A DNA stretch of 64,000 nt from Halorhabdus tiamatea SARL4B. Lineage in GTDB: Archaea; Halobacteriota; Halobacteria; Halobacteriales; Haloarculaceae. Within the stretch, counting starts at the first letter, position 1. Each line of letters starts with the position of its first letter. The stretch lies in NCBI RefSeq assembly GCF_000470655.1, contig NC_021921.1, positions 1 to 64,000 of the forward strand. The letters are read 5' to 3'. Made by a program: the position numbers and the translations under genes. The notes under the pieces were generated by a model. It saw only the letters and a list, made by a program, of their open reading frames with translations, was not told the origin of the DNA and did not search any database. This document shows positions 8,918-64,000 of this stretch, piece by piece.

Positions 8918-8950
8918 AGCTTTTTTACCGGTCCCGCCGGAGAGACACGT

Positions 8951-48804: not shown

Positions 48805-48851
48805 GAGTGGGTGCGTTTTGGGGTAATGCGAAGGGTCGGCCACGGCGACGT

Positions 48852-48926
48852 GGGCGCTTAGCTCAGCCTGGACAGAGTACTTGGCTTCGGACCAAGCTGT
48901 CGGGGGTTCAAATCCCTCAGCGCCCA
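48852..48926 (+). tRNA. tRNA-Arg (anticodon TCG)
   Basis: The acceptor stem GGGCGCT pairs with AGCGCCC (48919-48925), the D arm has GCTC/GAGT, the anticodon stem is CTTGG/CCAAG with loop CTTCGGA (anticodon TCG), and the T arm is GGGGG-TTCAAAT-CCCTC. The discriminator is A and no CCA is encoded. It is intact; the element-like DNA begins just after it. Confidence 0.95.
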
Positions 48927-49134: not shown

Positions 49135-49950
49135 TCACGCGCGAGCGAACGCCGACCGTAACGACAACTGCGCCGCATCACCCGTCGAAGACCCGAACAC
49201 GTCCAACGAGAACTGCTCCGAATCCCCGTCCGAATCACTCGAATCCCCCGTGTCGCTGGTAAGCAGTAACGACGACTCAACCACATCAACCACATCCCCT
49301 TCAACCGGATTCACCGACGCCGCGCGCGGAGAACACCGTTCAACCATGCGCGTCGCCACGCCCGCGTACTCGATGCCAGGTGACATCACCAACAGATCCG
49401 GGGACGGGACCGCGCGCATCACCACGGAATCCGGGTCACGTAGCGTGTCACGGTCCGCCGCAACGAACGCGCCCGGATACCCGTCCGGTTCCGACACGCC
49501 AACACCAACCAGTTGAACGTTGAGTCCAAGGTCTTCCCGGAGCACACGCACGTCGTTAGTAACCGCGTCACCGGGGAACAACTCAACCACGTACAGGTCC
49601 GCGTCCGGGTCAGCTGCGAACGCCTCCACCTCCGCGCGGCCGATCGGCGACGGCGCGGTCTCCGCCAACGTACTCAACACCGACCGTTCCCACGACGACC
49701 CGCCCGTCTCATACCGCTGCTGCGCCGTCTCAGGCTTCGTTCGAGACGCCATCACGTGCGTATTCGGCCCACCGGACGGGTTCGGAACTCGTTCCACAGG
49801 ACCGCGCGCGCCAGCATACCGCCCCGGCTTGAACTTCGATAACGTCGATAACGGCAGCGGTGTATCTCGGAGCATCCAAGGACCCGCGTCATGCCGCGGA
49901 ATCCCCATCACGTCCGTCCAATTCGCCCGTACCCACTGTTTCAATGCCAT
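49135..49950 (-). CDS. Element protein of unknown function, downstream of primase-polymerase
   Basis: The ATG at 49950 (MALKQWVRANWTDVMGIPRH) gives 271 aa. The first 70 residues are basic and Pro/Gly-rich, the middle is acidic, and a Rossmann-like stretch (LYVVELFPGDAVTNDVRVLRED, PDLLVMSPGIEYAGVA) hints at an alpha/beta fold, but no catalytic motif stands out. It follows the primase-polymerase gene by 25 bp on the same strand, with TTRGTAAC at 49955-49962 in the gap. It is the last gene of the replication transcript, so a helper role in replication or maintenance is plausible. Confidence 0.7.
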   Translation of the reverse strand: MALKQWVRANWTDVMGIPRHDAGPWMLRDTPLPLSTLSKFKPGRYAGARGPVERVPNPSGGPNTHVMASRTKPETAQQRYETGGSSWERSVLSTLAETAPSPIGRAEVEAFAADPDADLYVVELFPGDAVTNDVRVLREDLGLNVQLVGVGVSEPDGYPGAFVAADRDTLRDPDSVVMRAVPSPDLLVMSPGIEYAGVATRMVERCSPRAASVNPVEGDVVDVVESSLLLTSDTGDSSDSDGDSEQFSLDVFGSSTGDAAQLSLRSAFARA

Positions 49951-49975
49951 TGTGTTAGTAACCCTCTGAATCGTG

Positions 49976-51706
49976 TTACTGCCCGCCCGACCACTCGCTC
50001 GCACCGCCAGACGCACCCGTGCTGGGCGTGTCGTTGGTAGTCGCTTCTACCGTGAGATCCGCTTCTTCGAACGCGTCGTACGACTCTCCCTCACCGGTCA
50101 CGTCGTCGGGAACCTCCGGGACCGTGACACCGTCGTCGTCGGCCACTGGGTCTCCGCGCCCGCCGGTCGAGTCCGCGTCACCATCGAACTCGTCCGGAAG
50201 CACCATGTCACCCGTCTCCGGTCCCGTGTCCGTGTTACTGTCAGCTGCAGTGTTACTGTCAGTGTCGTCGGGAAGGTCCGTCACGTCACGCGCGTCTTCC
50301 ACGGACATGTCGTCAAACACCGCCTGCGCCGTGCCGTACGTCCTATCCGTCACGGCGTGCGAATCCGCCGACACGCCCAGCACGTCCTCGATGATAGCGT
50401 GCAAGGCGAGAGTCGGCGCATCAGCTTCCGGCGTCACTGCACCGGCTTCACGCGCCTCAATAGACGCTACGAGGCACGCATCCGGGTTCTCCCACGGATT
50501 CGTCCCTGCGTCCTTGTACTCCCCGAGCACGTCCATGTACAGGTCCGCCGTGTCACCCGACTCCACGTACTCCGGGACGTCGAACCCGAGGTCTCGCAAG
50601 TGGTCAAGACACCGGTGAGCGTCACGCCCGGTCACATCCCCAGGCTCCGCGCCGTCATGGTTCAGGATACGCAGGTCAATCGCCGCCATGATGAGCGGCC
50701 CGCCATGCCCTGAGTCCTGGCCTTTGTCCTTCCACACGTCCTCCGTGACGAAGTTCGCCGTCCCGCCGTCAGACGACGTTCCCCACGTTGGGAGGAACGC
50801 TCGGAACTCTGTCCCGGCCGGGTCGGACCAGGACTGCACGATCGTCGCGTCAGCCACATCCCGCGCATCCAGGTTGTTCACAGCGGTGAACACGTCTTCC
50901 ATGTCCGTCACAACGTCCGCATCCACGGTCGCGTCCGCGTCACCGCGCGTCAACTCCTGAACGTCCTGCGTGGTGTTCTTCCGCGGGTCCGTGGTCTTCC
51001 CGTGAGCGTCCAGAATCGGTCGAAGGGCGGTCTCGTCCGCCGCGTTCACTTCGACCGGTGTCCCGGGAACGTGCCACCCGGTCAGCACGGAGTTGTGCTT
51101 CGTCGGGTAAATCTCGATCTGCGGGAGGTCACCGTCGTCGTTCTCGCCCCACGCTTCATCGTCTAACTGCAGCACCGGTTCCTTCTTCGCTACCGCCGGC
51201 AGGGCACCGGTGTACACGGCGTGAATACCGCTCCCGGATTTGGACACCTCGCACCATGTCGCGCCGAGTGTAGCGAGGAACGCTTTGAACGCCGGGTGAA
51301 CGTCACCGGTCTCCGGACACCGGACATCGTCACCATCGATGAAGAGAAGCCCGTCGTCTTCTGCGAAGATGTACGCTCGGTGCTCGATTTCCCCGGTCGG
51401 GATTACTAAGTCTACCTTGTCACCGGTCCGGTAGTGCCCTTCATGCGACCACTTGTACCGCCCGTCACACGTGCAGCACGGGTCGTCACACCGGTCAGCT
51501 GGGCAGTCATCGTCAATGCATTCGACCGGCGGGTCTCGCGTCCCCCACGGTGCGAACGGGTACTTTACACCTTCTTGCGCGCCCATCCACCGCTCGTTCT
51601 CGGTGAGCTCGTCCGGGTACGCTCGCCCCTCAGGATCGGTGAATCCGACGTTGGTGAACGCGCCGAATCGCGCTTTTTGTTCGTCTGTGGTTGAGTCTGC
51701 TACCAT
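49976..51706 (-). CDS. Primase-polymerase-like replication protein (AEP superfamily)
   Basis: The ATG at 51706 gives 576 aa and has a TATA/operator box 27 nt upstream. The N-terminal ~220 residues match archaeo-eukaryotic primase-polymerase proteins of plasmids and viruses: VKYPFAPWG (residues 47-55), motif I LLFIDGDD with Asp124 and Asp126/127, motif II SKSGSGIHAVYTG with His162, and motif III QIEIYP with Glu198. A Cys-rich insert (CIDDDCPADRCDDPCCTCDG) looks zinc-binding. The C-terminal half is acidic and has no helicase motifs, so an unwinding partner is needed; a helicase gene lies immediately upstream. It likely primes or copies the element. Confidence 0.75.
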   Translation of the reverse strand: MVADSTTDEQKARFGAFTNVGFTDPEGRAYPDELTENERWMGAQEGVKYPFAPWGTRDPPVECIDDDCPADRCDDPCCTCDGRYKWSHEGHYRTGDKVDLVIPTGEIEHRAYIFAEDDGLLFIDGDDVRCPETGDVHPAFKAFLATLGATWCEVSKSGSGIHAVYTGALPAVAKKEPVLQLDDEAWGENDDGDLPQIEIYPTKHNSVLTGWHVPGTPVEVNAADETALRPILDAHGKTTDPRKNTTQDVQELTRGDADATVDADVVTDMEDVFTAVNNLDARDVADATIVQSWSDPAGTEFRAFLPTWGTSSDGGTANFVTEDVWKDKGQDSGHGGPLIMAAIDLRILNHDGAEPGDVTGRDAHRCLDHLRDLGFDVPEYVESGDTADLYMDVLGEYKDAGTNPWENPDACLVASIEAREAGAVTPEADAPTLALHAIIEDVLGVSADSHAVTDRTYGTAQAVFDDMSVEDARDVTDLPDDTDSNTAADSNTDTGPETGDMVLPDEFDGDADSTGGRGDPVADDDGVTVPEVPDDVTGEGESYDAFEEADLTVEATTNDTPSTGASGGASEWSGGQ

Positions 51707-51888
51707 CGTACATGGTATTACCACCCCGTGCCTAATAAACGTTTGCCGTTACACAACTCCGGGTAACACTATCAAAACCATACTCAAAACCCCGCCGCCC
51801 GGCACGGCATTAGTAACCAGAATCACTCGTGTCACGCACCCCGGAACAGACCAGGGAACCACGACCACGAGAACGCCGCAGACGCCCG
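51707..51888. other. 182-bp control region between helicase and primase-polymerase genes
   Basis: No reading frame. It holds the AAACGTTTATTA promoter/operator, a TTRGTAAC copy at 51810-51817 and a stretch similar to the one before 55163 over about 45 bp. Confidence 0.6.
51733..51746 (-). promoter_or_regulatory. Promoter/operator with AAACGTTT palindrome, primase-polymerase gene
   Basis: In the sense (minus) direction this reads GCAAACGTTTATTA. The TTTATTA part is 27-33 nt before the ATG at 51706, right for a leaderless TATA box. The overlapping 8-bp palindrome AAACGTTT is a likely operator. The same 14-mer recurs at 55383-55396. Confidence 0.65.
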
Positions 51889-53970
51889 TCAGTCCGCCGC
51901 CGTTCCCTCACCGGGCCCGTCACCCTCACGACGTGCGCGTCGTCGTTCACGCGCCGCAGCAGCCGCCTTCGGTTCCAAATCGTCCGGGACCATCCCTTCA
52001 AAGTCGTCGCACGTCATGTCGAACGCATCCCGAACGATGTGCAGCCCGGTCGTCGCCCGCGTCAGAGCGACATACCACGTCCGCGATTCGTTCTCTGCCT
52101 GTCGTTCATCCTCACGGATACCGTCCCGAACGCGGCCGGTCACGCCCGTATAGACAACGGCGTGTTCTGCTTCGTCGCCTTTCGCGGCGTGCATCGTCCA
52201 GAGACGCGTTTCCACGTCACCCGGTTTCTCGGGAAGGTCGTCACCGTACCGTTCCCACGCGCGCTGCATGGCCGTCACGTCACGATCCCGATTCCCGGTG
52301 AACCCGGCGTGTTCGTTCACGTACACCAGGTTCTCGATGGACTCCTTTCCTTGCCCGTAGACCGCCCACCAGTCCCGTGACACCATGTCCGCGAGCACCG
52401 GCATTGGAACGAGAGACGACGTGTTCGGCATTATCTCTCGCTCGTTCACCCGTGACAGTGCGTCCGACCGCGACCCGTCCAAATACCCCTCGTCCGTGTG
52501 CTTGAGGAGCACCCGCGCCTGCCGCGGCGTCAACCGAACATCCGACGTTTCAGGCGTCTTCACCGCCCCGTCACGCTCACCGTCACGGCCGTACTCGTCA
52601 CCGTCACCCACGACAGACACCTGCTGCGCCGGCCGGACATCCCGGACAGCACGCAACGAGTGCATAACGTGCAGCCGCCGCGCCCAGTTCCCCGCCACGT
52701 CTTCCTGCGACTGGTACACGACACCACCAGCATCCAAGCACGCACCGACACCGTCCGCGAGCATCTGAGTCCGCGCCATATGCATCATATCCGCCCCGTA
52801 CTCCTCGTGCAGCCGGAGCGGGGACTGACTCGCAGTCTCTGGGAACATCCGCCACCCGTCCTGGTCGTCGTACTCCATCGACCCCGGCGTGGTGTGCCGG
52901 TACAAGTCACCTTCACCCGCCGTCTCCAACTCTGGCGGAGTCCGGTGCCGGGATAAGATCCTCGCGGCGGCTTCGAAGTGCTCGTCCGGCACCCGGTGGC
53001 TCTTCGGGAGTTTCACCGGTTTCAAGTCGGTGCCCACGCGGTCGTTCAGCCCGGTGAATATCTCCGGTGACGCACCGCTGAACGCGTTACACACCTGATC
53101 CGGGTCACCAGCCGCGACCGCCGTCCCGGCCGCATCAATCCACTGCTCGAACAGTTTCACCATTAACGGGTACGCGTCGTGGAGCTCGTCAATCACCACG
53201 AACTCGTCACCCGGCAACCCGGCCGCGAGCCCGATTTCTAACTGTTCATAGAAGTCGTGACAGTCGTGTTCTCGCTTCCACGACTCCCACGCCTCCACCG
53301 CTACGTCGAACGACGCGCTCTGACCCCACTTGTCGTGGAAATCCTGCAGTCGCCGGAACGCGATCGTGTTCGACCGGACCGTCCCGAGGAGTTCGTCGTC
53401 AGTGATGTACCTCCACGTCCCGACATCCAGCAGATTCTGCTTCGCGTACGTGTACACCGCGTGGAACACTTCCCACTGCGAATCCCGCCCGTTCACACCG
53501 TTCTTGTACTCGATTCCGTGCTCGTCACAGAACGCGCGCGCTGCCTTCCCGTCAACCATCCCGGCGTGAGTCGGGGAATCCTCGTCAATGTGACCTAAGA
53601 AATCGGTGACACGCGTAGCGACCGCGTGCGCCGTCCCCCAGTACTCGTACGCGTCTTCTATACCGTCTGCGAACGGGAACACTTCCCAGTCCATCGCTCG
53701 CTCCGTGATGCTCACCGCGAGCTCCGTTCGGTACGTCACCACGGTCACGTCGCGCGGGCTCACGTCGTCGTGAGCGTCCACGTACCCCGCGACACGCGCG
53801 AGGGACTCCGTCGTCTTCCCCGACCCGGGCGGCCCCCAGAGAAGGACTGAGTCGTCCACGGCCGCGGTGTCTAACCCGTGAACGTACCCGTTCTGCAGGT
53901 CCGCGTCCAGGTTCCGGTACACGCCCTGCGAGACGACGTCCTCGAACGCTGTCTCACTAACTCGGGGCAT
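51889..53970 (-). CDS. UvrD/Rep-type superfamily 1 helicase
   Basis: The 693-aa protein shows SF1A helicase motifs: Walker A GPPGSGKTT (residues 46-54), motif II VVIDELHDAYP (DEXX-like), GDPDQVCNAF (motif III), WTMHAAKGDEAEHAVVYTG (motif V) and YVALTRATTGLHI (motif VI). The 2B region is short. It ends in a basic/acidic tail. It should unwind DNA for the element primase-polymerase. Its ATG overlaps the stop of the 397-aa gene by one base (TAATG), so the two are translationally coupled. Confidence 0.9.
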   Translation of the reverse strand: MPRVSETAFEDVVSQGVYRNLDADLQNGYVHGLDTAAVDDSVLLWGPPGSGKTTESLARVAGYVDAHDDVSPRDVTVVTYRTELAVSITERAMDWEVFPFADGIEDAYEYWGTAHAVATRVTDFLGHIDEDSPTHAGMVDGKAARAFCDEHGIEYKNGVNGRDSQWEVFHAVYTYAKQNLLDVGTWRYITDDELLGTVRSNTIAFRRLQDFHDKWGQSASFDVAVEAWESWKREHDCHDFYEQLEIGLAAGLPGDEFVVIDELHDAYPLMVKLFEQWIDAAGTAVAAGDPDQVCNAFSGASPEIFTGLNDRVGTDLKPVKLPKSHRVPDEHFEAAARILSRHRTPPELETAGEGDLYRHTTPGSMEYDDQDGWRMFPETASQSPLRLHEEYGADMMHMARTQMLADGVGACLDAGGVVYQSQEDVAGNWARRLHVMHSLRAVRDVRPAQQVSVVGDGDEYGRDGERDGAVKTPETSDVRLTPRQARVLLKHTDEGYLDGSRSDALSRVNEREIMPNTSSLVPMPVLADMVSRDWWAVYGQGKESIENLVYVNEHAGFTGNRDRDVTAMQRAWERYGDDLPEKPGDVETRLWTMHAAKGDEAEHAVVYTGVTGRVRDGIREDERQAENESRTWYVALTRATTGLHIVRDAFDMTCDDFEGMVPDDLEPKAAAAARERRRARREGDGPGEGTAAD

Positions 53971-55163
53971 TACTCGTCACCCCCGAACGTGGTCGTGCCG
54001 CCGTCCGCAGCCGCTTTCCCGGCGGATGCGAACGTATCAGCTTCCTCAATCGACTGCACGATTCGCGGCATCTCAACCGCCGACGCCTTCAACCGCCACC
54101 ACCGAATACCGTCCTTCGCTACCGAGCACCCCATCCCGCTGATTTCGTCGGTCGTGACACCGCGAGCGTCCAGTTCCCGAACGAGTTTCTCACGGTTCGT
54201 CGCGTAGTCCTCGCAGGCTGCGTCCACCATGCTCGTGGGAACCCAGACTTCGTCGTGGTCTTCGTTGTAGTGCACCGCGCCGTCAGCAGCGTCAACGACT
54301 GACTGCCGGTCGTGCGCCGCACGACCGTTCTCGATGGAGGTCTGCAGGTCTTCCCACGCATCTGTCCGCGGGCCTGCCGGCGGTTCCGCCATGCCTTCAC
54401 CTTTGTCGTCTTCCAAGTCCACAATCACGTTGTTCCACGACAGACCCCACGGTCGTTCCTCGGGACCGAGTGACAGTTTCCGGTACTGTTCCTCCGCCCA
54501 GTCGTCTTCGGACGGGTTCCCGGAAATGTCTTCACGGGCCTGAGCGGACGCGTACTCCTCATGCACTTTGACGGGAGCGGCGGTTGAGATCCGGTCGTAG
54601 AATTCCTTCTCGTCCCGATGGTCGTTGTTTTCGAATTCAACACTGGTACCGTCGCTGAAGTTGAATTCGAACGTGTACTCGGACACGTGGTCCCGGTTCG
54701 TCAGTTCCACTACACGTTCTAACCGGTTCTCGATGTATTCGTCTAACCCGACGCCGTAGTCGAGCGTGTATGCAGACCCGGTTTCTGCGAGTTCTTCGAC
54801 TTTCTCTTCTGCTTGTTCGCGTTCTACTTCACCGATGTGCGGTTCAATCGCACCGAGGATGCGGTCTCCACCGCCGATGAATTGGATGTTCTTACCGATT
54901 TCCCGTGCACGAAGGTCCGCGCGGTCTTTGACGTCCACGGCGGCGTTGTGCTGCGTGGCGATCGCGGCGAGGGCTTCACCGGCTGCAGCGAGTTCTGGAC
55001 CGGATTCGGTCATGGAACTGGATTCCAGTTGCGTTTGGAGGAGTTCCATGACTGCGTCGGTTTCCTCGGTCGGGCGGTCGGTGGTTTGGTTAGCTGCTTT
55101 CTTGTACAGATTCGGACTGTCGTCGTCTTCAGTTTCGATCGTGTAAGTGTACTCGCTTGGCAT
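53970..55163 (-). CDS. Unknown element protein coupled to the SF1 helicase
   Basis: The ATG at 55163 (MPSEYTYTIETEDDDSPN) gives 397 aa. The first 130 residues are helical and acidic; the middle ~100 are likely alpha/beta; the last ~110 (VWVPTSMVDAACEDYATN, REKLVRELDARGVTTDEIS, RWWRLKASAVEMPRIV) have the shape of a winged helix. No enzyme motif is seen. It is the first gene of the replication transcript, 1-bp overlap with the helicase gene, and follows a long leader. It may be an origin-binding or helicase-loading factor; that is inference from position. Confidence 0.75.
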   Translation of the reverse strand: MPSEYTYTIETEDDDSPNLYKKAANQTTDRPTEETDAVMELLQTQLESSSMTESGPELAAAGEALAAIATQHNAAVDVKDRADLRAREIGKNIQFIGGGDRILGAIEPHIGEVEREQAEEKVEELAETGSAYTLDYGVGLDEYIENRLERVVELTNRDHVSEYTFEFNFSDGTSVEFENNDHRDEKEFYDRISTAAPVKVHEEYASAQAREDISGNPSEDDWAEEQYRKLSLGPEERPWGLSWNNVIVDLEDDKGEGMAEPPAGPRTDAWEDLQTSIENGRAAHDRQSVVDAADGAVHYNEDHDEVWVPTSMVDAACEDYATNREKLVRELDARGVTTDEISGMGCSVAKDGIRWWRLKASAVEMPRIVQSIEEADTFASAGKAAADGGTTTFGGDE

Positions 55164-55286
55164 TACTGTTCACCTGCGATTCCTGCGTTCTCGGCGGCGT
55201 GCGCCGGAGTTTCCGGTGTTTTTAAGTCGGTGCGTGTCGTACGGTCATACGAGGTTGGACGGGTCATGGTTTGATTCTCGTCCCCT

Positions 55287-55323
55287 CGCCGCCGGCGCGA
55301 CCTGGCAGGGTTCTCCGGCGGCG
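55287..55323 (-). promoter_or_regulatory. Hairpin in the 5' leader of the helicase operon
   Basis: Arms 55287-55295 (cgccgccgg) and 55315-55323 (ccggcggcg) are perfectly complementary, 9 GC-only pairs with a 19-nt loop, inside the leader between the promoter box and the ATG at 55163. It could slow transcription or translation, or bind a protein. Confidence 0.4.
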
Positions 55324-55382
55324 ATTTTGCGACGGTATCTACGTTCTCCGTCAGGGGTTACTCCATACTTTGGTCCCGGGGG

Positions 55383-55396
55383 TAATAAACGTTTGC
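55383..55396 (-). promoter_or_regulatory. Second AAACGTTTATTA promoter/operator, helicase operon
   Basis: An identical 14-mer to that at 51733-51746 (sense GCAAACGTTTATTA), with similarity continuing about 30 bp beyond it. It lies 220 nt before the ATG at 55163, so this promoter makes a leadered transcript. Confidence 0.6.
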
Positions 55397-55483
55397 TGAG
55401 GTACAACGCCGGAAAACACCATCGAGAACCCGGCATCAAACACTAACCATTAAGGGGTAAGACAACGTTGGTAACATAATACC

Positions 55484-56200
55484 ATGACCCCCGAAACCAC
55501 CGAAGCAACCCTCGAACCCCTCGTCATGCCCACAGACGCCAAAATCCTCACTGGCCTCCAACACGGCACACGAGAAACACCAACCAACCTCGCAGCACAA
55601 CTCGAAGACACCAGCCAAAACTACACCGCCAACCGCCTCCGCAAACTCGAACTCCGAGGCTACACCCACAGCCCAGGCCCCGCCGACCGCAGCGGCATGT
55701 ACGAAATCACCACGTGGGGCCGCTACGCCACCGCGCACATCGAGAAACACAACAGATCCTACGACGAACTCTTCCACCGACTCGTCACCCGAGCGTGCGG
55801 TGCACAACCCACACCAGAACACGCCTACCCCGACAACATCCCCGAAGAAGACCGTGAAACCCAACCCGCACCCGACCCGTGCGCAGAGACAGACACTACT
55901 CTCGTCCAACTCTACAGGCACGTCTACGACGGTCTCAAAACCCTCCACGACATTGATGGCGTCACTATCCCCACAGATTTCCGCGAACGACTCCCACCCA
56001 CCGACGATGGTAACATGGCGAGCGCCGGCGACGCCGCAGACACCCTGTACACCCTCCACTTCCACGGGTTCGCCGAACGGCGTGACGACATGGAAGCCTA
56101 CAGTATCACTGACGACGGCCGGCAGTTGGTAAAACAAGACCCGGACCCGTCAACCCTACAGCACGGCGTCCCGCGCGACGAACTCCTCCCCAGTAATTAG
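55484..56200 (+). CDS. Winged-helix regulator, divergent from the helicase operon
   Basis: The 238-aa protein has an N-terminal winged helix (MPTDAKILTGLQHGTRETPTNLAAQLEDTS, then NYTANRLRKLELRGYTHS and GMYEITTWGRYATA), resembling the PhiH1-repressor-like group of haloarchaeal viruses and plasmids. The C-terminal half has a second HTH-like or helical region (LYRHVYDGLKTL, LYTLHFHGFAERRDDMEAYSITDDGRQLV). It is transcribed away from the replication genes across a 320-bp region, the classic place for a repressor. Its sense strand is unusually rich in A and C and poor in G and T. Confidence 0.8.
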   Translation: MTPETTEATLEPLVMPTDAKILTGLQHGTRETPTNLAAQLEDTSQNYTANRLRKLELRGYTHSPGPADRSGMYEITTWGRYATAHIEKHNRSYDELFHRLVTRACGAQPTPEHAYPDNIPEEDRETQPAPDPCAETDTTLVQLYRHVYDGLKTLHDIDGVTIPTDFRERLPPTDDGNMASAGDAADTLYTLHFHGFAERRDDMEAYSITDDGRQLVKQDPDPSTLQHGVPRDELLPSN

Positions 56201-56205
56201 TAACC

Positions 56206-56221
56206 ACACACGCGCGTGTGT
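56206..56221. terminator. 16-bp perfect palindrome between convergent genes
   Basis: ACACACGCGCGTGTGT is self-complementary over its full 16 bp and lies between the regulator stop (56200) and the mini-TFB stop (56239), the place for a bidirectional terminator. Confidence 0.45.
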
Positions 56222-56238
56222 CCTCCGTCTCAGAACAC

Positions 56239-56679
56239 CTACTCCTCACCAAACGCGGACGCGTCCGGAAGCTCAGGAATACCGCCCCCTCCCGCCAAGT
56301 GACTGAGCCTATCCCACGCCGCTCGCGTCTCAACGTTGGTATCACAAACCACCGCAACATCCACCGAATCCTCCGTCACCGCACGCTCCGCCATGTCATG
56401 CATCCATGAGCGTATCGAGACGGCCGTTGTACCGGTCGCATCCGCCACGGTGTCCTGCGACACTCCCGTACCAGTGAGCGCCACGCACGCGGCGTACAAC
56501 GCCGCGCCAGCGAGCGCCGACCGGCGCGCGCCAGCGAACTCACCAGCGGGGAACGTCGTGTCTAAGATGTCTTCTGCGAGCCCGATCGCTCGTGGCGGGA
56601 TATCGGGAGCAGCTGCAGGGGTTGGTAAGTACTGTTTCGGGTCGAGGTGTTCCGGTGGAACGGTTGTGTCTGTGCTCAT
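56239..56679 (-). CDS. Mini-TFB: single cyclin-repeat protein
   Basis: The ATG at 56679 gives 146 aa. Residues ~25-100 resemble only the second cyclin-like repeat of TFB: ARRSALAGAALYAACVALTG then VSQDTVADATGTTAVSIRSW, aligning with the BRE-reading HTH of chromosomal TFB. There is no zinc ribbon, B-finger or first repeat. The conserved Gly/Ala run and the HTH helices look intact, so it is not simply a decayed TFB end. It has its own CGTATCTGT promoter block. It could compete with full TFB at promoters or act as a dedicated activator or repressor. Confidence 0.7.
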   Translation of the reverse strand: MSTDTTVPPEHLDPKQYLPTPAAAPDIPPRAIGLAEDILDTTFPAGEFAGARRSALAGAALYAACVALTGTGVSQDTVADATGTTAVSIRSWMHDMAERAVTEDSVDVAVVCDTNVETRAAWDRLSHLAGGGGIPELPDASAFGEE

Positions 56680-56710
56680 ATCCACACGTACGTCCCCTAC
56701 CGGGATAACT

Positions 56711-56720
56711 TACAGATACG
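56711..56720 (-). promoter_or_regulatory. CGTATCTGTM block, mini-TFB gene (copy A)
   Basis: Sense CGTATCTGTA, 31 nt before the ATG at 56679. It is one base off the consensus and is followed by TATCCC like the other copies. Confidence 0.6.
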
Positions 56721-56775
56721 TTATGCGGTGAGTGTTCGTGTGGTGGTGACCGGGCGGTTCGGCCTCTACTATAAT

Positions 56776-56906
56776 ACGGGTTCTCAGAATCTAAGCCGAA
56801 CAAGGGGGTGAGGGTTTATGTGTCTTTAAGTGTGTTCTACTATCACCCCCCATTTAATAGTATATAAACCCTCACCCCCTTATCGAATAGAATCCTGAGA
56901 ACCCGT
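56776..56906. other. Nested inverted repeat with AT-rich centre: candidate origin or control region
   Basis: Outer arms, 12 bp, exact: 56776-56787 (acgggttctcag) and 56895-56906. Inner arms, 18 bp, exact: 56802-56819 (aagggggtgagggtttat) and 56864-56881. The spacers between outer and inner arms are 14 and 13 bp, and the 44-bp centre is AT-rich. Two symmetric, G-rich arms around an easily melted core, in a long non-coding region of a replicating element, suggest a replication origin or a large two-sided operator. Confidence 0.55.
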
Positions 56907-57074
56907 AGTATACAGTACGAAAAATCACGTCGGTAGTAACCCACTATGAGACAGAACGCTCGATAGGGAACAGCAACCGTCACACCGGCCGTTAGGCACC
57001 GCTGGGCAGTGAACGTGTTACGCAAACCGTTCACCACGACTGCCAGGGTTCGTTCTGTCAGTAAGATACCCAGA

Positions 57075-57080
57075 ATATAA
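57075..57080 (+). promoter_or_regulatory. TATA-like box before hairpin-rich region
   Basis: ATATAA lies about 25-30 bp before the structured block at 57100-57225. Confidence 0.35.
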
Positions 57081-57099
57081 GTGACCAGTCGGGATGCGT

Positions 57100-57225
57100 C
57101 GACGTGCCGCCGTGACCGGCGCGGCGGTCTCACAGAGAGAGTGATGCCGGGAGTGTGTTCCTCCCGGCAACCCCTGACGGGGCAGTGGTTGTGGTGGTCG
57201 TGGTGGGCCACCACCCCGCCGCAAA
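57100..57225 (+). ncRNA. Possible structured RNA (hairpin-rich block)
   Basis: Three or four short hairpins follow one another: CCGCC/GGCGG (57107-57127), a perfect 9-bp stem 57145-57153/57161-57169 (tgccgggag, 7-nt loop), CCCC/GGGG (57171-57182), and GTGGTGG/CCACCAC (57191-57214). No open frame of note overlaps on the plus strand. A TATA-like box lies at the right distance. No known RNA family is recognised. Confidence 0.35.
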
Positions 57226-57268
57226 ACGACAGTCAGTCAGGCGTTATAAGCCTCTTCGTTTTCCGTTG

Positions 57269-58633
57269 TCACTCGTCTCGCGGGACTCGTGCTGCAGCGG
57301 CGAGGTTGTTCCCGTCCGGGAGTCGCACGAACGCTGGGACGTTGTCTCCACCGACGATCTCTGTGTCAGCTGCATCCGCGGCGTTCTCAAGGAACTCGAT
57401 GTACTCGTCCTCGAATTTTGCCGTGTCGCCGTTTTCCGTCTCAACTAACGCGTAACCTTCTGCGTCACCGCGGTCCTCGCTTTTCGTGATATTAGTAACG
57501 CGCGATAAGTCTGTACTGTCACTGACGCTGTCACGCATTTCCCCACCGTCGTCTATACCGAATACGTTCGATGCACCCGACCACCGCGTATTAGAATCGG
57601 CGTCACGCCGGTCCATCAACCCGAGGAGCCGCCCGATCGTGTCACCGGTGTGGTCTTGGTCTGCTTCGGGGACAGTGCTGGCGATTCCGGTCGGGATGTC
57701 GTTGTCCAGTGAGTCCATCCCGTCCATAGTATCCGTGTCTACGAGTTCCTGCTGGCGTTCGGAGAGGTCGTGCAGGTCCTCGATGGCCATGACATCGTCG
57801 CTCGGGTGGATGTCAGCGGCTGTTTTCCCGCCGATGTACGGAATGTCGGTGAGCGGTGTCCGTCCGGGGTCGTCACCGCTCGCGGGGACGTCGGACGGGA
57901 GTGCGAATCCGAGCGTGTCAGGGTCTGTTACGGACTGTTTGATGTCGTGAATGGTTTCTTCACCGACGACATCGGCCCAGTCTTTCATGATGCGTTCTTG
58001 TGCAGCTGCTTCGTTGGTAGGATAGTCGCCGTACTCTGCGAGGTCGTTAGCGGCGTCGTACATGTCCTCGGTGTGCTCCGAGACAGCGTGTTCCAACAGG
58101 TCAGCGTTCAGGTCGGTGTTCTCGGTGAGCCACACGTCGTCCACGTCCAGGCTGATCATCGGGTCTTGGTGTTCGTTCTCCGGGTCGGTGAGTGTAAGAT
58201 CGAACGGTCGGAACCCGAGCTGTTCTTCGATGTAGTCAGCTTGTTCGCGCGTGACTTCGGCGTTGAGGTCGGGCGTGAACCCGTTGATATCCTCGATTGC
58301 GGTTTCAAGCCGGTTGTCGTCGGTTACTTCTTTGACGGCTTGCAGGATGTCTTTCTCCCCGCTGAATTCTTCGATTGCGTCTGCGAGTTCGTCGGTGGTA
58401 GCTTCGCTGGCGACGGCTTGCAGTCCAGGGTCGTCCAGCGCTGCGGTGAGCGTGGTCCGGGGACCGTTCTCGTATTCCGTGTCCGGGTCGTACGAGTCTG
58501 GGACTTGCCCCGGTGTTTCGTCTACTGCACCGGCTGGGCCGAGGTACTTCCAGTGATGCTTCCCTCCGCTGTATTCGACGTGGTACAGGTACGGGCCTGC
58601 ACCGTCGATGGTTTTCTTTACGATAGTTGCCAT
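57269..58633 (-). CDS. Element protein, shared N-terminal module plus helix-hairpin-helix (paralogue 1)
   Basis: The 454-aa protein begins with the module shared by three element proteins (residues 1-38: MATIVKKTIDGAGPYLY, then GGKHHWKYLGPAGAVD). A long acidic helical region follows, then a helix-hairpin-helix-like segment at about 260-298 (LTDIPYIGGKTAADIHPSDD) and a C-terminal beta/acidic part. It is collinear with the protein at 61045: both have DPDTLGFA/DPDALGFA before the HhH segment. The HhH suggests DNA contact. A CGTATCTGTC block precedes it, and the gene follows the zincin gene on the same strand, its promoter block abutting that stop. Function unknown. Confidence 0.75.
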   Translation of the reverse strand: MATIVKKTIDGAGPYLYHVEYSGGKHHWKYLGPAGAVDETPGQVPDSYDPDTEYENGPRTTLTAALDDPGLQAVASEATTDELADAIEEFSGEKDILQAVKEVTDDNRLETAIEDINGFTPDLNAEVTREQADYIEEQLGFRPFDLTLTDPENEHQDPMISLDVDDVWLTENTDLNADLLEHAVSEHTEDMYDAANDLAEYGDYPTNEAAAQERIMKDWADVVGEETIHDIKQSVTDPDTLGFALPSDVPASGDDPGRTPLTDIPYIGGKTAADIHPSDDVMAIEDLHDLSERQQELVDTDTMDGMDSLDNDIPTGIASTVPEADQDHTGDTIGRLLGLMDRRDADSNTRWSGASNVFGIDDGGEMRDSVSDSTDLSRVTNITKSEDRGDAEGYALVETENGDTAKFEDEYIEFLENAADAADTEIVGGDNVPAFVRLPDGNNLAAAARVPRDE

Positions 58634-58667
58634 GCTACGCGTTGGTAGAACACGGGAGGGGATGCGC

Positions 58668-58677
58668 GACAGATACG
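58668..58677 (-). promoter_or_regulatory. CGTATCTGTC block (copy B)
   Basis: Sense CGTATCTGTC, 34 nt before the ATG at 58633, directly after the stop of the zincin gene. Confidence 0.65.
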
Positions 58678-59655
58678 TTACTCTGTGAGGATGTTATCGG
58701 CTTCGACGGCGTGCATAGCGTCATGCACGTCGGTTGGTAAGTCCTCCCCGCGCATGTCTCGGGACCGGGCTTCTGCGTAGAACTCTATCGGGTCGTGGTC
58801 CAGTCCTTGCCCGAACTCCTCGCCGATCGCGTCGCGGTAAGGGTCCATGGAGGCGTGCATGCGGTCCCATACGCCGCCGTCGTTGGCGTCCATGACTGAC
58901 TCGATGTCCACGTCTGCGTCGTGGTACTCTCGTAAGTGAACGTGGTGCGCGGCTTCGTGCCAAAGCGCGTGCCGGGTGTCCTCAATATCAGTTCCGTACG
59001 ACGTCACCGACCCGTCGTCGCCGTCACGGTACGTGTCACCGTTCAGCGTTATCGTGGGTTGGTAACCGAGACTGTTCCCGACGATGTCCTGCGGTTCCGG
59101 TTCGTACTCCGCGTTCACCCCGGACACGCCCCCGTGTTTCTCCGCGAGGTTCTCTCCCGGAGTGGTCGTGATTTTGTGGATCCCGTCCAGCACACCGGCG
59201 TCCCGGAGTTCCTCGATGTCCGCGACCGTGTCACGGAGCCGGTCCATGTCGTCGATGTTGGTGAGTGAGACTCGGATGTCGTGTTCGTGGTAGTGCTCGG
59301 TGATTTGATCGACTGCCCACCGAGCTTCTGAGTCGTACCAGTCGTCAGCACCACCGTACGATTCACCGTCCAGTATCCGGTCAAGAGTCCCTTCGTAGTG
59401 TGCGCGGTCACGTGGGGCGTCAGCGTGCGTTGTAGCCGCCCCTCCCGTGTCCGGGTCCGTGTGGTCGTCGTCGGTACCGTCGCCGTCAGCACCCGCATCA
59501 CGGTCCTCTTGCCTGGTCGTCGTGACGGGGCCGGGTGACGTGTCTACCTCCCCGGCTTTTCCGAGGTACTCCCAGTGGTGCTGCCCACCGCCGTAGGTAA
59601 CTCGGTACGCGTACGGCCCGTACCCGTTGATGCGCTTGTGAACGATCGTCGCCAT
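58678..59655 (-). CDS. Element protein, shared module plus zincin-type HExxH domain (paralogue 2)
   Basis: The ATG at 59655 gives 325 aa. Residues 1-38 are the shared module (MATIVHKRINGYGPYAY, then GGQHHWEYLGKAGEVD). After a disordered linker of about 50 residues comes an alpha/beta domain with a zincin site HEAAHH (233-238); Glu291 or Glu295 in HDPIEFYAEARSRD could be the third ligand. The C-terminal part thus looks like a metallopeptidase. With no signal peptide, it should act inside the cell, in the virion, or after delivery. It is divergent from the element tfb gene, sharing one promoter region. Confidence 0.75.
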   Translation of the reverse strand: MATIVHKRINGYGPYAYRVTYGGGQHHWEYLGKAGEVDTSPGPVTTTRQEDRDAGADGDGTDDDHTDPDTGGAATTHADAPRDRAHYEGTLDRILDGESYGGADDWYDSEARWAVDQITEHYHEHDIRVSLTNIDDMDRLRDTVADIEELRDAGVLDGIHKITTTPGENLAEKHGGVSGVNAEYEPEPQDIVGNSLGYQPTITLNGDTYRDGDDGSVTSYGTDIEDTRHALWHEAAHHVHLREYHDADVDIESVMDANDGGVWDRMHASMDPYRDAIGEEFGQGLDHDPIEFYAEARSRDMRGEDLPTDVHDAMHAVEADNILTE

Positions 59656-59686
59656 ACTCAGACGCAGGACACCGGGAGGGAAGCGC

Positions 59687-59695
59687 GACAGATAC
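59687..59695 (-). promoter_or_regulatory. GTATCTGTC block, zincin gene (copy C)
   Basis: Sense GTATCTGTC (GGTATCTGTC, one base off consensus), 31 nt before the ATG at 59655. It is divergent from copy D, 53 bp away. Confidence 0.65.
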
Positions 59696-59748
59696 CGTCT
59701 TGAACCGCAGGACACCCGCCCGCCAGCGGCGCGTCGTTAGTAAACCGG

Positions 59749-59758
59749 CGTATCTGTC
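59749..59758 (+). promoter_or_regulatory. CGTATCTGTC block, element tfb gene (copy D)
   Basis: Exact consensus, 35 nt before the ATG at 59794. The spacing decides that ATG rather than the GTG at 59776 is the start. Confidence 0.7.
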
Positions 59759-59793
59759 AAACTTGGTCATGGGGTGTGTATACTAACATACCC

Positions 59794-60792
59794 ATGGCAG
59801 GCACCCCTACACGCCTCAGAACCCGTGAAAACGGTGAAACACGTACAAACAGTGAACAAAACACCGAGTCCAGCGAGGACACGACATCCCAGCAGACGTG
59901 CGGCGAATGCGGCGGTGACCTCACCCGCGACAACGGAGAAATCGTGTGCGAGGACTGCGGATTAGTAACCAGCGAGAACCGCATCGACCGAGGGCCGGAA
60001 TGGCGAGCGTTCAACCAGCAAGAACGCGAGGAGAAAAGCCGCGTCGGAGCCCCTACCACGGACAAACTCCACGATAAAGGCCTCTCCACGAACATCGACT
60101 GGCAGAACCGCGACGCGTCCGGGACCCCACTCTCCAAATCCAAGCAGGAGCAGATGGACCGTCTCCGAGAGTGGAACACCCGCAGCAAGACAGCGACAAG
60201 CGCCGACCGGACGAAGCAAACCGGGTTAGCGGAAGTACAGCGCATGGCGTCCGCGCTCGGACTCCCCGAACACGTCGAAGAAACGGCGTGCGTGATGCTG
60301 AAACAGTGCGTTACCCAGGACCTGATGCGCGGTCGGTCGATTGAAGGCATGGCGACAGCGTGCATCACGCTCGCTGCACGGCAGTGTAACTGCCCGCGGC
60401 AGCCTGGTGACGTGTACAGCGTGTCACGGTTACAGGACCCGTCGCGCGTAGATTCTGACATCCGGTACGTCGCACGCGAGCTCGGTGTGGAAGCCGCGCC
60501 TGCAGACCCGCGCGAATACATTCCAGGGTACGTCGATGCCCTGGACGTGGACGACCCGGTAGCCGTCCGGGAAACAGCTGTAGACATGCTTGACACCGCC
60601 GAGAACGAGAACCTGCACTCCGGCCGCGCACCGACCGCGATCGCGGCCGCAGCAGTGTACTCCGCGACCGTTATCCACATTGAAGGCATCACGCAAGTTG
60701 ACGTCGCACAATCAACCGATGCGTCCGCCGTCACGATCGGGAAACGGTACCCAGAAATATTGAACGCGTACGGCGTCCCGCAGTCAGCATAA
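59794..60792 (+). CDS. Element-encoded transcription factor TFB
   Basis: The ATG at 59794 (MAGTPTRLRTREN) gives 332 aa. The zinc ribbon (CGECGGDLTRDNGEIVCEDCG) is followed by the B-finger region (EWRAFNQQEREEKSRVGAPTTDKLHDKG) and two cyclin repeats; the second has APTAIAAAAVYSATVIH and ITQVDVAQSTDASAVTIGKRY. It is clearly diverged from the chromosomal TFB at 40608 throughout the cyclin repeats, including the DNA-reading HTH, so it may recognise another BRE. It lies in the same divergent unit as the zincin gene and carries the CGTATCTGTC block itself. Confidence 0.93.
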   Translation: MAGTPTRLRTRENGETRTNSEQNTESSEDTTSQQTCGECGGDLTRDNGEIVCEDCGLVTSENRIDRGPEWRAFNQQEREEKSRVGAPTTDKLHDKGLSTNIDWQNRDASGTPLSKSKQEQMDRLREWNTRSKTATSADRTKQTGLAEVQRMASALGLPEHVEETACVMLKQCVTQDLMRGRSIEGMATACITLAARQCNCPRQPGDVYSVSRLQDPSRVDSDIRYVARELGVEAAPADPREYIPGYVDALDVDDPVAVRETAVDMLDTAENENLHSGRAPTAIAAAAVYSATVIHIEGITQVDVAQSTDASAVTIGKRYPEILNAYGVPQSA

Positions 60793-60819
60793 CACGGACC
60801 CTGCTGGTTGGTAACTGTG

Positions 60820-61023
60820 TTACGCAGGTTCTGGCGCGTTCAAACCAGGCGTGAGGGTATCACCGTCCCTGTCGATGTACTCATTTTCCACGAGTCGTGG
60901 GAGCACCGCTCGAACTGTGAGCTGCGTAACACCAGTCAGTTTGGTAAGACCACGGATTGTGATGGAACCGTGCAGTACAACGACCGCAACGATTGCCTGT
61001 GACCGAGCGTGTAACTCTCTCAT
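60820..61023 (-). CDS. Small winged-helix DNA-binding protein
   Basis: The 67-aa protein (MRELHARSQAIVAVVVLHGS) has a compact HTH with wing: SITIRGLTKLTGVTQLTVRAVLPRLVENEYIDRDGDTL. It resembles MarR/ArsR-like minimal winged helices. It starts 21 nt after the stop of the paralogue-3 gene on the same strand and has no promoter block of its own, so the two are likely one transcript; a TTRGTAAC copy overlaps its start. It could autoregulate the pair. Confidence 0.7.
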   Translation of the reverse strand: MRELHARSQAIVAVVVLHGSITIRGLTKLTGVTQLTVRAVLPRLVENEYIDRDGDTLTPGLNAPEPA

Positions 61024-61044
61024 TAGTAACCGTGAGAGACCGTG

Positions 61045-62382
61045 TTATTCGACCTTCGGTGCGAGCACGATCGAATCATCGTTCCCGAGCTCGATTTCGA
61101 GCGGGTGCGTGTCGTCGTTCCCGGAACGCATCACCGCGTCGTCGGGCAGCACAGGGTCGAGTAACTCCCAGTACGTGCTTGAGTACCGCGACTCCCCACC
61201 GCCCGCTGTCTCCATGTGCACCTCGCCGTCACGGTGTTCCACGGACTCCACGCGAGACATTTCATCCTGACTTATCCCACCCCAATCCTCACCGGTCGGA
61301 CCGACTGACACCGTGTCACCCTGATCGGACGCGTACAGGTCGTCTATCCGCGAGTCAGTCATTTGCAGCGCACCGATAACGGCCGTCGCCGGGTCACCAG
61401 AACGGTCTGAGACGCGTGCGACGACGTCACCGACTGCGTCCGTGTTCTCCTTGATGTCAACGTCCACGGCAACGCGCTCACGCTGCAGGCTGGATAACTC
61501 ACCGTAGTCTTCTAACGCGATCTCGTCACCGTTCGGATGGTTTTCTTTCGCCGTCGCGGGACCGACACCGTACAGGTCTGTGACCGGTGTTTTCCCCTTC
61601 TCGCCGGCGTTCGTTGGTATCGTGTCCGGGTGCGCGAACCCGAGTGCGTCCGGATCGCTCGCTGTGTCCTTCGCCTTCCGGACTGCGTCGACGCCGACTG
61701 TGTCCTCTAACGCCGCTTGCACGCTCGCTTGCTGATCCGGTTCTGCCACGCGCCACGAGTCAGTGACGGAGTCCACGACACCGTTCACGAGGTCAGCGGC
61801 AGCGTCCGCGTCGGTCGGCATCCGAATATCCGTGTTGGTAAGCGTGACACTGTACTCGTCGTCTTCATCAATCTCACCGGGCCGCACACCGATTTTCGCC
61901 TCAATCGTATCGAGAGCCTCACGGACTTCGTCTTCGTCCGCGGGGATGTATTCACTCGTGGTGGTACTCGTTCCGAACGAGTTCGACCGTCGTTCGGTTT
62001 GGATCGTGTCGATGGCGTCTGCGAGCTCCGGGTCGTCGGTGTCCATCAGGTTGAGGAGTGACCGCATGTCCCCGGAGTCGTATGCTTTGCTGCCTTCGAC
62101 TGCGAGGGCGTCTACGAGGTCCTCGTACGTGCCTGCAGCGTCGTCTCCGTCCAGTCCGTCAAGGAGTGCGGCCGCTGCCGGGTCGTCCACACGCGACCGT
62201 GTAACCCCGTTCACGGCGTGTTCCGTCTCCGGTTGGTAATCATCCGGAACCGGACCGAGTTCCTCGTCAACCGCGCCGGCCTTCCCGAGGAATTCCCAGT
62301 TCTGCTTCCCACCACCAAGGTGCGTGACCTTATACAAATACGGCCCGTACCCATTCACCGTCTTGCTGATTATTGCTGCCAT
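61045..62382 (-). CDS. Element protein, shared module plus helix-hairpin-helix (paralogue 3)
   Basis: The 445-aa protein starts with the shared module (MAAIISKTVNGYGPYLY, then GGGKQNWEFLGKAGAVD, residues 1-39). The middle is helical and acidic; a HhH-like segment lies at about 265-305 (VTDLYGVGPATAKENHPNGD). The HhH segment and what precedes it (DPDALGFA) match paralogue 1 collinearly, but the C-terminal ~120 residues differ. A CGTATCTGTC block lies 34 nt upstream. No catalytic residue is evident. Co-transcribed with the small winged-helix gene downstream. Confidence 0.75.
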   Translation of the reverse strand: MAAIISKTVNGYGPYLYKVTHLGGGKQNWEFLGKAGAVDEELGPVPDDYQPETEHAVNGVTRSRVDDPAAAALLDGLDGDDAAGTYEDLVDALAVEGSKAYDSGDMRSLLNLMDTDDPELADAIDTIQTERRSNSFGTSTTTSEYIPADEDEVREALDTIEAKIGVRPGEIDEDDEYSVTLTNTDIRMPTDADAAADLVNGVVDSVTDSWRVAEPDQQASVQAALEDTVGVDAVRKAKDTASDPDALGFAHPDTIPTNAGEKGKTPVTDLYGVGPATAKENHPNGDEIALEDYGELSSLQRERVAVDVDIKENTDAVGDVVARVSDRSGDPATAVIGALQMTDSRIDDLYASDQGDTVSVGPTGEDWGGISQDEMSRVESVEHRDGEVHMETAGGGESRYSSTYWELLDPVLPDDAVMRSGNDDTHPLEIELGNDDSIVLAPKVE

Positions 62383-62416
62383 TACACGTGTTAGTAACGT
62401 GTAGACCGGGATGCCC

Positions 62417-62426
62417 GACAGATACG
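62417..62426 (-). promoter_or_regulatory. CGTATCTGTC block (copy E)
   Basis: Exact consensus in the sense direction, 34 nt before the ATG at 62382, with GTTACTAAC between it and the start. Confidence 0.65.
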
Positions 62427-62450
62427 CCCGTAAAAACCACGAGCCACCGG

Positions 62451-63032
62451 TCAGTCAGCCGGGGATTCCGAGTACTCACACGCGTTAACCCCGGGCGCGA
62501 ACGAGTCTAACCGGTCCTGCGCGCCCACGTCCCGGTCACGGAGCTTCACGAGGAACCCTTGCGACGATAAGTATTCCACTACGTCCGTGTTCTCAGCTGC
62601 GTCGCCCCATACGAGCACGAGAGACGGTGCAGGCGCGGAATTCGCCGCCTCACCGAACGACAGCCGGCCTTCAACGAAACACGCTAAGTCAGCTGTCGTC
62701 GCGTGGTTGTGGAACCATTGAGTACTGGTTCGGGCGAACACTAAGGAGATGATCGAGTCCACTGCACCGCGGTGGTACTCGTTGCGCGCGTACTCTAACC
62801 AGTCACTGACAGTCGAATACGGCGGGTTTAGCCACACGTCACCGTGCCACGGAATAGACAGCCCATCTTCGTCTTTGGTAACGTTCCGTTCCGCGAGGTT
62901 CGATGATGTGCTTGCCGACGGGTCTAAGTCGAATCCGGAGACTGCATCGATGAGCGGTTCGACGAACTCACCTGGTGTGTCGTGGTCGTCGTCGCCTTCC
63001 TCGTACACGTGCCCGACTGAACTGAACGTCAT
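62451..63032 (-). CDS. Phage-type N6-adenine DNA methyltransferase
   Basis: The ATG at 63032 gives 193 aa. It matches the phage Dam-like family (PF05869 type): DPSASTSSNLAERNVTKDEDGLS, the catalytic DVWLNPPYS (NPPY motif IV), then FARTSTQWFHN and VWGD. Such orphan methyltransferases mark element DNA against host restriction or control replication. Upstream lies a CGTATCTCCC variant of the promoter block (63064-63073) and TTRGTAAC at 63038-63045. Longer frames to 63167 pass through these signals and were not used. Confidence 0.88.
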   Translation of the reverse strand: MTFSSVGHVYEEGDDDHDTPGEFVEPLIDAVSGFDLDPSASTSSNLAERNVTKDEDGLSIPWHGDVWLNPPYSTVSDWLEYARNEYHRGAVDSIISLVFARTSTQWFHNHATTADLACFVEGRLSFGEAANSAPAPSLVLVWGDAAENTDVVEYLSSQGFLVKLRDRDVGAQDRLDSFAPGVNACEYSESPAD

Positions 63033-63063
63033 GTACGTTGGTAACCCGGACACGGGTAACACC

Positions 63064-63073
63064 GGGAGATACG
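63064..63073 (-). promoter_or_regulatory. Variant promoter block CGTATCTCCC (copy H)
   Basis: Sense CGTATCTCCC, 31 nt before the methyltransferase ATG at 63032; matches the first seven consensus bases and the spacing. Confidence 0.5.
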
Positions 63074-63239
63074 CGGAGTGTACGGAGACCGCGTAACACT
63101 GAACGTGATCGGAAAAGCAACGGGTAGGGGTAAAGCGAATGGGAGAAGCGTTGATGGTAGCAAGCAACCCAAGCAGATGCTGTCAATCTGTGTTGGAGTG
63201 CTCCTCCCAGTTACACGTAAGTCGCGGAGGGGGATAAAC

Positions 63240-63249
63240 GACAGATACG
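63240..63249 (-). promoter_or_regulatory. CGTATCTGTC block without a nearby start (copy F)
   Basis: Exact consensus, followed by TATCCCC as in the others, but no start codon with an open frame lies 31-37 nt downstream; the next gene on that strand starts at 63032. Confidence 0.5.
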
Positions 63250-63277
63250 GTGCTGCGACCGTCACTCGCGCCGCCGG

Positions 63278-63478
63278 TCACCGCATGTCGTTGTAGAGTT
63301 CGTTGGCTTGCTCGTCCACCCACGCTTCCGCAGCGAATCCTGAATCACCCCACAGGGCCAGGGCATTCAGCACCGCTTCACGGCACTCCACTCGATTCGG
63401 CGCGGTGTCAGTGTCAGTGTTGGTAAGCTGGTCAGCGGCCGCGCGTTGGACGGCACTGGGGAGGTTTTCCGGTGTCAT
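63278..63478 (-). CDS. Small element protein, unknown
   Basis: The ATG at 63478 (MTPENLPSAVQRAAADQL) gives 66 aa, mostly helical and acidic, with no recognised family. The consensus promoter block at 63515-63524 lies 36 nt upstream, which supports both the gene and its start. Confidence 0.65.
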   Translation of the reverse strand: MTPENLPSAVQRAAADQLTNTDTDTAPNRVECREAVLNALALWGDSGFAAEAWVDEQANELYNDMR

Positions 63479-63514
63479 GATGTGCTCGTAGGTAACTCGT
63501 GTGATGGGGAGAAC

Positions 63515-63524
63515 GACAGATACG
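63515..63524 (-). promoter_or_regulatory. CGTATCTGTC block (copy G)
   Basis: Exact consensus in the sense direction, 36 nt before the ATG at 63478. Confidence 0.65.
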
Positions 63525-63603
63525 CTCGGGAGAGAAGACTGAGAGATACAGCCAAACGAAGGACGCACACTTATAACGCGAACGTGAGAAGAATCTCTCA
63601 TCA

Positions 63604-64000
63604 ATGAGCGGTCTCACGGAATCTCTCGCAGAACACCTCCCCGACGACTTTGACGAAAAAGTCACAGACCCGGACCACGGCGAAGAAACAGCAGCGAAAA
63701 ACTACGGCGTCCCGATACTGAAAGAACTCGGGTTAGAACACGCAGACTACGAAGAAATCATCGAATCCGGCGACCGTCCAGACTTCGTTTGGGAAGACAA
63801 AGACGGTGTCACACGAATCGTTGGTGAACTCAAGAAACCGTGGGACGAAGAACATAGTGACGATGACCCCCGGTACAAAATCGAGCAAGCGATCAGCGAA
63901 GCCCGCGTCTACAACGACCAACTCCGTCTCAAATACATCCTCGCAACCGACGGGCGGTACATCTTCTTCAGCAACGAATACGAAGACCCGCCAGTAGAAC
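63604..64000 (+). CDS. N-terminus of a PD-(D/E)xK nuclease-like protein (partial)
   Basis: An ATG at 63604 opens a frame that runs off the right edge (132 residues visible). The segment RPDFVWEDKDG then IVGELKKPWDEE has the PD-(D/E)xK pattern (Asp, then Glu-x-Lys), common at the N-terminus of type IIG and related restriction enzymes, which also carry a methylase and specificity domain further on. The later RLKYILATDGRYIFFSNEYE strand fits the same fold. The sense strand is A- and C-rich and G-poor like the regulator at 55484. What follows, and so the full type, is outside the window. Confidence 0.65.
   Translation, partial: MSGLTESLAEHLPDDFDEKVTDPDHGEETAAKNYGVPILKELGLEHADYEEIIESGDRPDFVWEDKDGVTRIVGELKKPWDEEHSDDDPRYKIEQAISEARVYNDQLRLKYILATDGRYIFFSNEYEDPPVE

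Follow-up and report, generated by a model that had tools for sequence, protein, structure and literature searches.

A putative private promoter class in a pleolipovirus-like integrated element of Halorhabdus tiamatea, with the element's own TFB as its possible reader

Bacteriophage sigma factors have their own late promoters, while genes for TFB occur in some archaeal viruses and in many haloarchaeal plasmids. Our literature search found no paper linking a TFB carried by a mobile element to promoters of its own. Among haloarchaea, the multiple TFB and TBP paralogues of Halobacterium have been proposed to select different promoter classes (PMC2121645). Moreover, the promoters of SIRV1 and SIRV2 carry a virus-specific GTC motif (Kessler 2004, as cited in PMC5569661). 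Finally, cluster A mycobacteriophages contain stoperators, which are 20–30 short asymmetric sites scattered along the genome with one prevailing orientation, some of them at promoters (PMC6550527).

The genome of Halorhabdus tiamatea SARL4B amounts to 3.15 Mb in two contigs, and the window analysed here covers the initial 64 kb of the contig that measures 2.82 Mb. An element of ~46 kb, integrated at a tRNA-Arg gene (48851–48927) lying directly before it, occupies the window from 48928 to 64000 and extends beyond it to a contig position of about 94.6 kb (about 48.9–94.6 kb overall), with a tyrosine recombinase gene at contig positions 93165–94253. Judged from its predicted proteins, this is a pleolipovirus-like integrated element, in which a pleolipovirus-like module sits in a 46-kb genome together with the element's own replication genes. 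The module was assigned because the ATPase and the membrane protein match PHROG families (phrog_1979 at 2e-27 and phrog_1938 at 3e-12, respectively, in a profile search), and because a homologous ATPase in another element (genome G121) matches those of the pleolipoviruses HRPV, HGPV and SNJ2; the ATPase of the element is 44–53% identical to homologues of this pleolipovirus-matching kind. The same profile search of the element proteins returned no named pleolipovirus spike homologue. Furthermore, a search of 391 genomes of the class with one HhH protein of the element found a single other genome besides the host, that of Natrinema thermotolerans DSM 11552, whose contig 42 (hereafter element B) encodes proteins closely related to each of the three HhH/zincin proteins. 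The alignable DNA of the two elements is 84% identical, and most proteins are 65–97% identical.

The initial annotation had listed a block before seven genes of the element, plus one copy lacking a gene, and every listed copy was recovered in its place: five exact copies of CGTATCTGTC, two with one mismatch and one two-base variant. On the minus strand, the exact copies at 58668–58677 and 62417–62426 each start 44 nt before a gene for an HhH protein (57269–58633 and 61045–62382, respectively), and another one at 63515–63524 starts 46 nt before the gene of a 66-aa protein (63278–63478). The two copies with one mismatch, CGTATCTGTA (56711–56720) and GGTATCTGTC (59687–59696), also on the minus strand, start 41 nt before the mini-TFB gene (56239–56679) and the zincin-like gene (58678–59655), respectively, the former being kept in element B, and the minus-strand two-base variant CGTATCTCCC (63064–63073) starts 41 nt before a Dam-type methyltransferase gene (62451–63032). 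The TFB gene (59794–60792) is preceded on the plus strand by an exact copy at 59749–59758, with its start at a distance of 45 nt. The orphan copy, exact and on the minus strand (63240–63249), is conserved in element B. The distance of 31–37 nt originally given holds as the gap between block and ATG, but the block itself starts at −41 to −46. Likewise, the trailing TCCC is present but degenerate, and the ACYAAC pattern before the ATG exists, although its full form is TTACYAAC, in a fixed register to the core of the block. Beyond the window, block copies precede genes at 68.4, 69.0, 69.5, 72.4, 74.8, 81.2 and 84.0 kb, the block genes outside the seven of the initial annotation starting at contig positions 68397, 68974, 69474, 72322, 74750, 81141 and 83910.

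The exact sequence CGTATCTGTC appears 10 times in the 3.15-Mb genome, six of them within the 46-kb element, compared with one copy genome-wide for a reversed control pattern, and the remaining four copies, outside the element, all lie within long open frames. With up to two mismatches, 70 matches were found in the whole window against 69.5 expected; since this count shows no excess over chance, the signal resides in the exact copies and in their position. The conserved core is CGTATCT, the GTC part being weaker. Element genes were called from coding potential without using the motif, and 53 of them entered the count, while 400 kb of the chromosome served as host background. In a motif search of the complete element and this host background, of the kind that the initial annotation had suggested, the core [CTG]GTATC[TC] started at −47 to −39 in 14 of the 53 genes of the element, compared with 0 out of 293 host ORFs (Fisher 8e-13), so the density before host genes is far from equal and the proposal of an element-specific block is not refuted on this point. 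Eight of the 14 block genes have the core start at exactly −41 and three at −44, and CGTATC is the commonest 6-mer of the −47 to −39 interval (12 genes, compared with a maximum of four in shuffled upstream regions). The gene at 70681, with a core 51 nt upstream alongside a TATA-like sequence, was kept apart from the 14.

In keeping with a block that is not TATA-like, the 60 nt preceding each of the 14 block genes contain no TATA match. Conversely, the genes at 51706 (minus), 63604 (plus), 72434 (plus), 73504 (minus), 74463 (minus) and 78004 (minus) have a TATA match and no core. A repeated BRE+TATA promoter, GCAAACGTTTATTA, was found in four copies genome-wide, all in the element and on the minus strand, at 51733–51746 (before the PrimPol-like gene 49976–51706), at 55383–55396 (upstream of 53970–55163 and the helicase genes) and, beyond the window, at contig positions 73536–73549 and 78036–78049. 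When aligned on the ATG, the core (−41 to −35) falls at the BRE half of GCAAACGTTTATTA (about −40 to −34 for gene 51706). Thus, if transcripts are leaderless, the core lies at the BRE position, while if they start near TTACYAAC it lies about 26 nt upstream, the usual place of the TATA box. For leaderless transcripts, −41 to −35 would also coincide with the normal BRE or lie immediately upstream of it, where activators usually bind, and this fits a second reading, in which the block is the site of an element-encoded activator that recruits host TBP and TFB to TATA-poor promoters. We regard this reading as possible but rather doubtful: the block is asymmetric and occurs as a single copy per promoter, with neither the palindrome nor the tandem pair expected for a dimeric HTH protein, and it lies at a very narrowly fixed distance from the start, much as a core element does.

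Twelve promoter pairs were compared between the element and element B, namely ten on the minus strand, that of tfb and that of the gene at 70681. Core columns 0–5 (CGTATC) are identical in 12 of the 12 pairs, while the upstream columns are kept in 3–8 of them; the block class is thus under selection, as the core is retained throughout whereas flanking columns keep about half. A second conserved footprint lies at +30 to +37, and a WT dinucleotide is conserved at +13/+14 (−28/−27 from the ATG), which could be a degenerate TATA box and in this respect would suit an activator. This pattern of conservation contradicts the notion that the block reflects chance or the duplication of upstream regions with no function. 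As the N-terminal domains of the three HhH/zincin genes are paralogous, a single upstream region may have given rise to some of the copies, but the genes preceded by the block are in other respects unrelated, the flanks of the copies are unrelated to one another and the core outlasts its flanks in element B, all of which makes shared ancestry without function extremely improbable. Taken together, the position of the block, its near-absence in the host, the lack of TATA boxes and the conservation in element B bear out the private promoter class put forward initially, and the block genes very probably constitute such a class, as far as sequence comparison can tell.

Among genomes, phages, plasmids and IMG/VR, element B was the only further block-bearing element found, so that the class is known from two elements. 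The composite pattern of the core, 22 nt of any sequence and TTACYAAC had six matches in the element and four in element B, against five scattered single matches across the rest of the 391 genomes. The IMG/VR matches to this pattern that were examined were likewise single, mostly in A+T-rich contigs, and were taken as chance.

With regard to the reader of the block, the element TFB (59794–60792, plus strand) is a protein of 332 aa with a zinc ribbon and two TFIIB repeats (PF00382 at 2.4e-32 and PF08271 at 4.6e-13), 81% identical to the TFB of element B. An alignment that included the TFBs of the host and an archaeal TFB of known structure (1d3u) upheld the remark that its recognition helix departs, at conserved positions, from the canonical host form (AVTIGKRYPE in the element and VVTVRHRYPE in element B, compared with EVTIRNRY), and the change fits an altered specificity. 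However, the two element TFBs differ from each other at several positions of the helix (G/R, K/H), though the block is the same. The block is present before the TFB gene in both elements, and factor and promoter class are both present in both known elements, which is a sample of two. The best matches to the element TFB in the plasmid collection are 48–51% identical; these nearest outside TFBs have ordinary plasmid surroundings without the block, and they neither support nor exclude a link between TFB and block. The link is therefore circumstantial, consisting in the block borne by the TFB gene and in the TFB carried by both block-bearing elements, and we give the element TFB about an even chance of being the reader.

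Other proteins of the element might act as the activator considered above, and all of these candidates are conserved in element B. The mini-TFB (56239–56679, minus strand; 146 aa) consists of one cyclin repeat with its HTH and no zinc ribbon (Pfam Cyclin_C at 1.6e-4 and TFIIB at 5e-4); according to the alignment it keeps only the second, HTH-bearing repeat, and it is itself under the block. Furthermore, there are two winged-HTH proteins (55484–56200 and 60820–61023) and a sigma-70-region-4-like HTH protein (contig 72434–73051, plus strand; Pfam 3.5e-5).

In the 589-bp gap between the mini-TFB and HhH genes, nested inverted repeats were observed at 56770–56912, with 38-nt arms that are 74% complementary and 31-nt arms that are 81% complementary; in the counterpart of element B, the sequence of the inner arms has changed and complementarity is still apparent by eye. 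They are a candidate replication origin or nicking site. An Rfam match to a microRNA family at 56772–56910, below the gathering score, was attributed to the inverted repeat rather than to that family. In addition, a domain of ~40 aa (GxGPYxYRV...WxYLG) recurs, mostly at the N-terminus, in five element proteins (genes 57269–58633, 58678–59655, 61045–62382 and contig 80536–81141 and 84284–84457), and other pleolipovirus-like elements have it next to their ATPase gene. In a poor AlphaFold model (mean pLDDT of 45) of one HhH protein, this domain has three strands.

For the orphan block at 63240, the initial annotation had noted no gene at the expected distance, a statement that needs revision. Downstream of it, both elements have about 120 nt of conserved sequence with gaps that are not all multiples of three (63095–63217, minus strand), in which GGGAGGAGC can pair with GCTTCTCCC, the counterpart in element B being GCTCCTCCC. 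Folding of the single sequence was not significant (z of only −0.95 for 63095–63217). Given this conservation, the gaps and the pairing stem, the stretch is probably a small non-coding RNA gene driven by the orphan block.

In most block promoters of the minus strand, the TTACYAAC motif follows the core start at a distance of exactly 29 nt, as with CTACCAAC (block at 58668), TTACTAAC (62390–62397; block at 62417), TTACCAAC (63037–63044; block at 63064), all on the minus strand, and TTACCTAC (block at 63515). It is tied to the core and not to the start codon, since this register is fixed while the ATG floats (−41, −44, −46). In contrast, at least four minus-strand promoters (among them that of the zincin-like gene) and the plus-strand tfb promoter, with no TTACYAAC at +29, have the core without it, which rules out an obligatory initiator; being optional in block promoters, TTACYAAC was treated as a regulatory or structural signal. 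A block and TTACYAAC set at a fixed 29-nt spacing astride the presumed start could also form an operator, at which a repressor silences the gene set of the integrated element, the promoter elements proper being merely weak. The scattered TTACYAAC copies recall in this regard the repressor sites of cluster A mycobacteriophages, but the promoters with a core alone, and a polarity that is independent of transcription, unlike that of stoperators (PMC6550527), render an operator improbable.

This polarity extends over the whole element, whose most enriched words lie within TTACYAAC. A total of 32 out of 59 genome copies are in the element, all 32 on the minus strand (for example, 49954–49961), while the other 27 split 15/12; in element B, 47 out of 47 are on the equivalent strand. 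With the shorter TTACYAA, the element has a strand split of 48 to 4 and element B one of 63 to 0, and 33 out of 36 alignable sites are kept in element B, compared with 48% for permuted 7-mers. The motif stays on the minus strand even within plus-strand genes, and ten TTACYAA sites lie antisense inside genes. TTACCAA is also enriched, with mixed orientation, in four smaller pleolipovirus-like elements (two in genome G121 and one each in G268 and G398), and no such enrichment was seen in six other elements with the same ATPase. A gene for a serine-recombinase-like HTH protein was present in five of six motif carriers and none of six non-carriers, which serves as a lead only. Dense TTACCAA clusters of alternating orientation were observed directly upstream of this gene in element L074 of G268 (around 8191–8822) and element L077 of G398 (8721–9226).

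Two candidates for the role of the motif were discarded. A priming site for the PrimPol-like protein (GTTRGTAA on the other strand), by analogy with the phage NrS-1 priming site TTTGGTTA (PMC8718748), is countered by PrimPol relatives without the motif and by four other elements that have the motif and no match to that PrimPol. A role as reader of TTACYAAC for the ~40-aa domain at the N-terminus of the HhH/zincin proteins is countered by six other domain-bearing elements without the enrichment. Tentatively, and with less confidence than for the element TFB as reader of the block, TTACYAAC may be a genome-wide, strand-polar address signal for an element protein involved in replication, segregation or packaging, which would also have been recruited, at the 29-nt register, into the TATA-less promoters read by the element TFB. 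The polar signal is the least explained part of the system, and it raises a separate question, namely how the element distinguishes its two DNA strands.

Overall, the best explanation is a private promoter class in which CGTATCTGTC, a short spacer and a degenerate WTMCC would replace the canonical BRE/TATA pair and drive ~14 genes plus a probable small RNA; its most likely reader is the element TFB, acting with the TBP and RNA polymerase of the host. Those with ordinary BRE-TATA promoters (the PrimPol-like protein, the helicase operon and a restriction enzyme) would be open to transcription by host factors throughout, whereas the block class would come on only after the element TFB has been produced, and feedback may follow, tfb itself being within the class. 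As a whole, this explanation stands at roughly even odds in our judgement. The block before ~14 of the element's own genes, including tfb, points to a private transcription programme operated by the element in its host. Whether a mobile element can do so in archaea, like phages with sigma factors, is directly testable, as the gene and the promoter set are available together with a second, diverged version of the system.

Compared with known relatives, the element shares ATPase and membrane-protein homologues with the betapleolipoviruses (SNJ2, HRPV-9 to -13 and HGPV-1) and a tyrosine recombinase with SNJ2 and HRPV-9, but those tested measure 9–17 kb as opposed to about 46 kb here; none of the tested isolated pleolipoviruses showed TTACYAA enrichment or had more than three CGTATCT. 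Like the stoperators, TTACYAAC forms many scattered asymmetric copies in one orientation; however, stoperators follow the direction of transcription, whereas TTACYAAC keeps to one strand whichever way the genes run. As in SIRV1 and SIRV2, a cis-element specific to an archaeal mobile element is common to most of its promoters, but the SIRV promoters, as described in the citing source, have clear TATA and BRE with the motif downstream of TATA, while here there is no TATA and an own TFB is encoded. The haloarchaeal TFB and TBP paralogues similarly offer alternative general factors for separate promoter classes, although they are host genes, whereas here the TFB, the promoter class and the targets are on one mobile element. 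Finally, as with bacteriophage sigma factors, an initiation factor encoded by the element would steer the host polymerase towards a private set of promoters, the difference being that the protein families are unrelated and that the link between factor and promoter is here a proposal.
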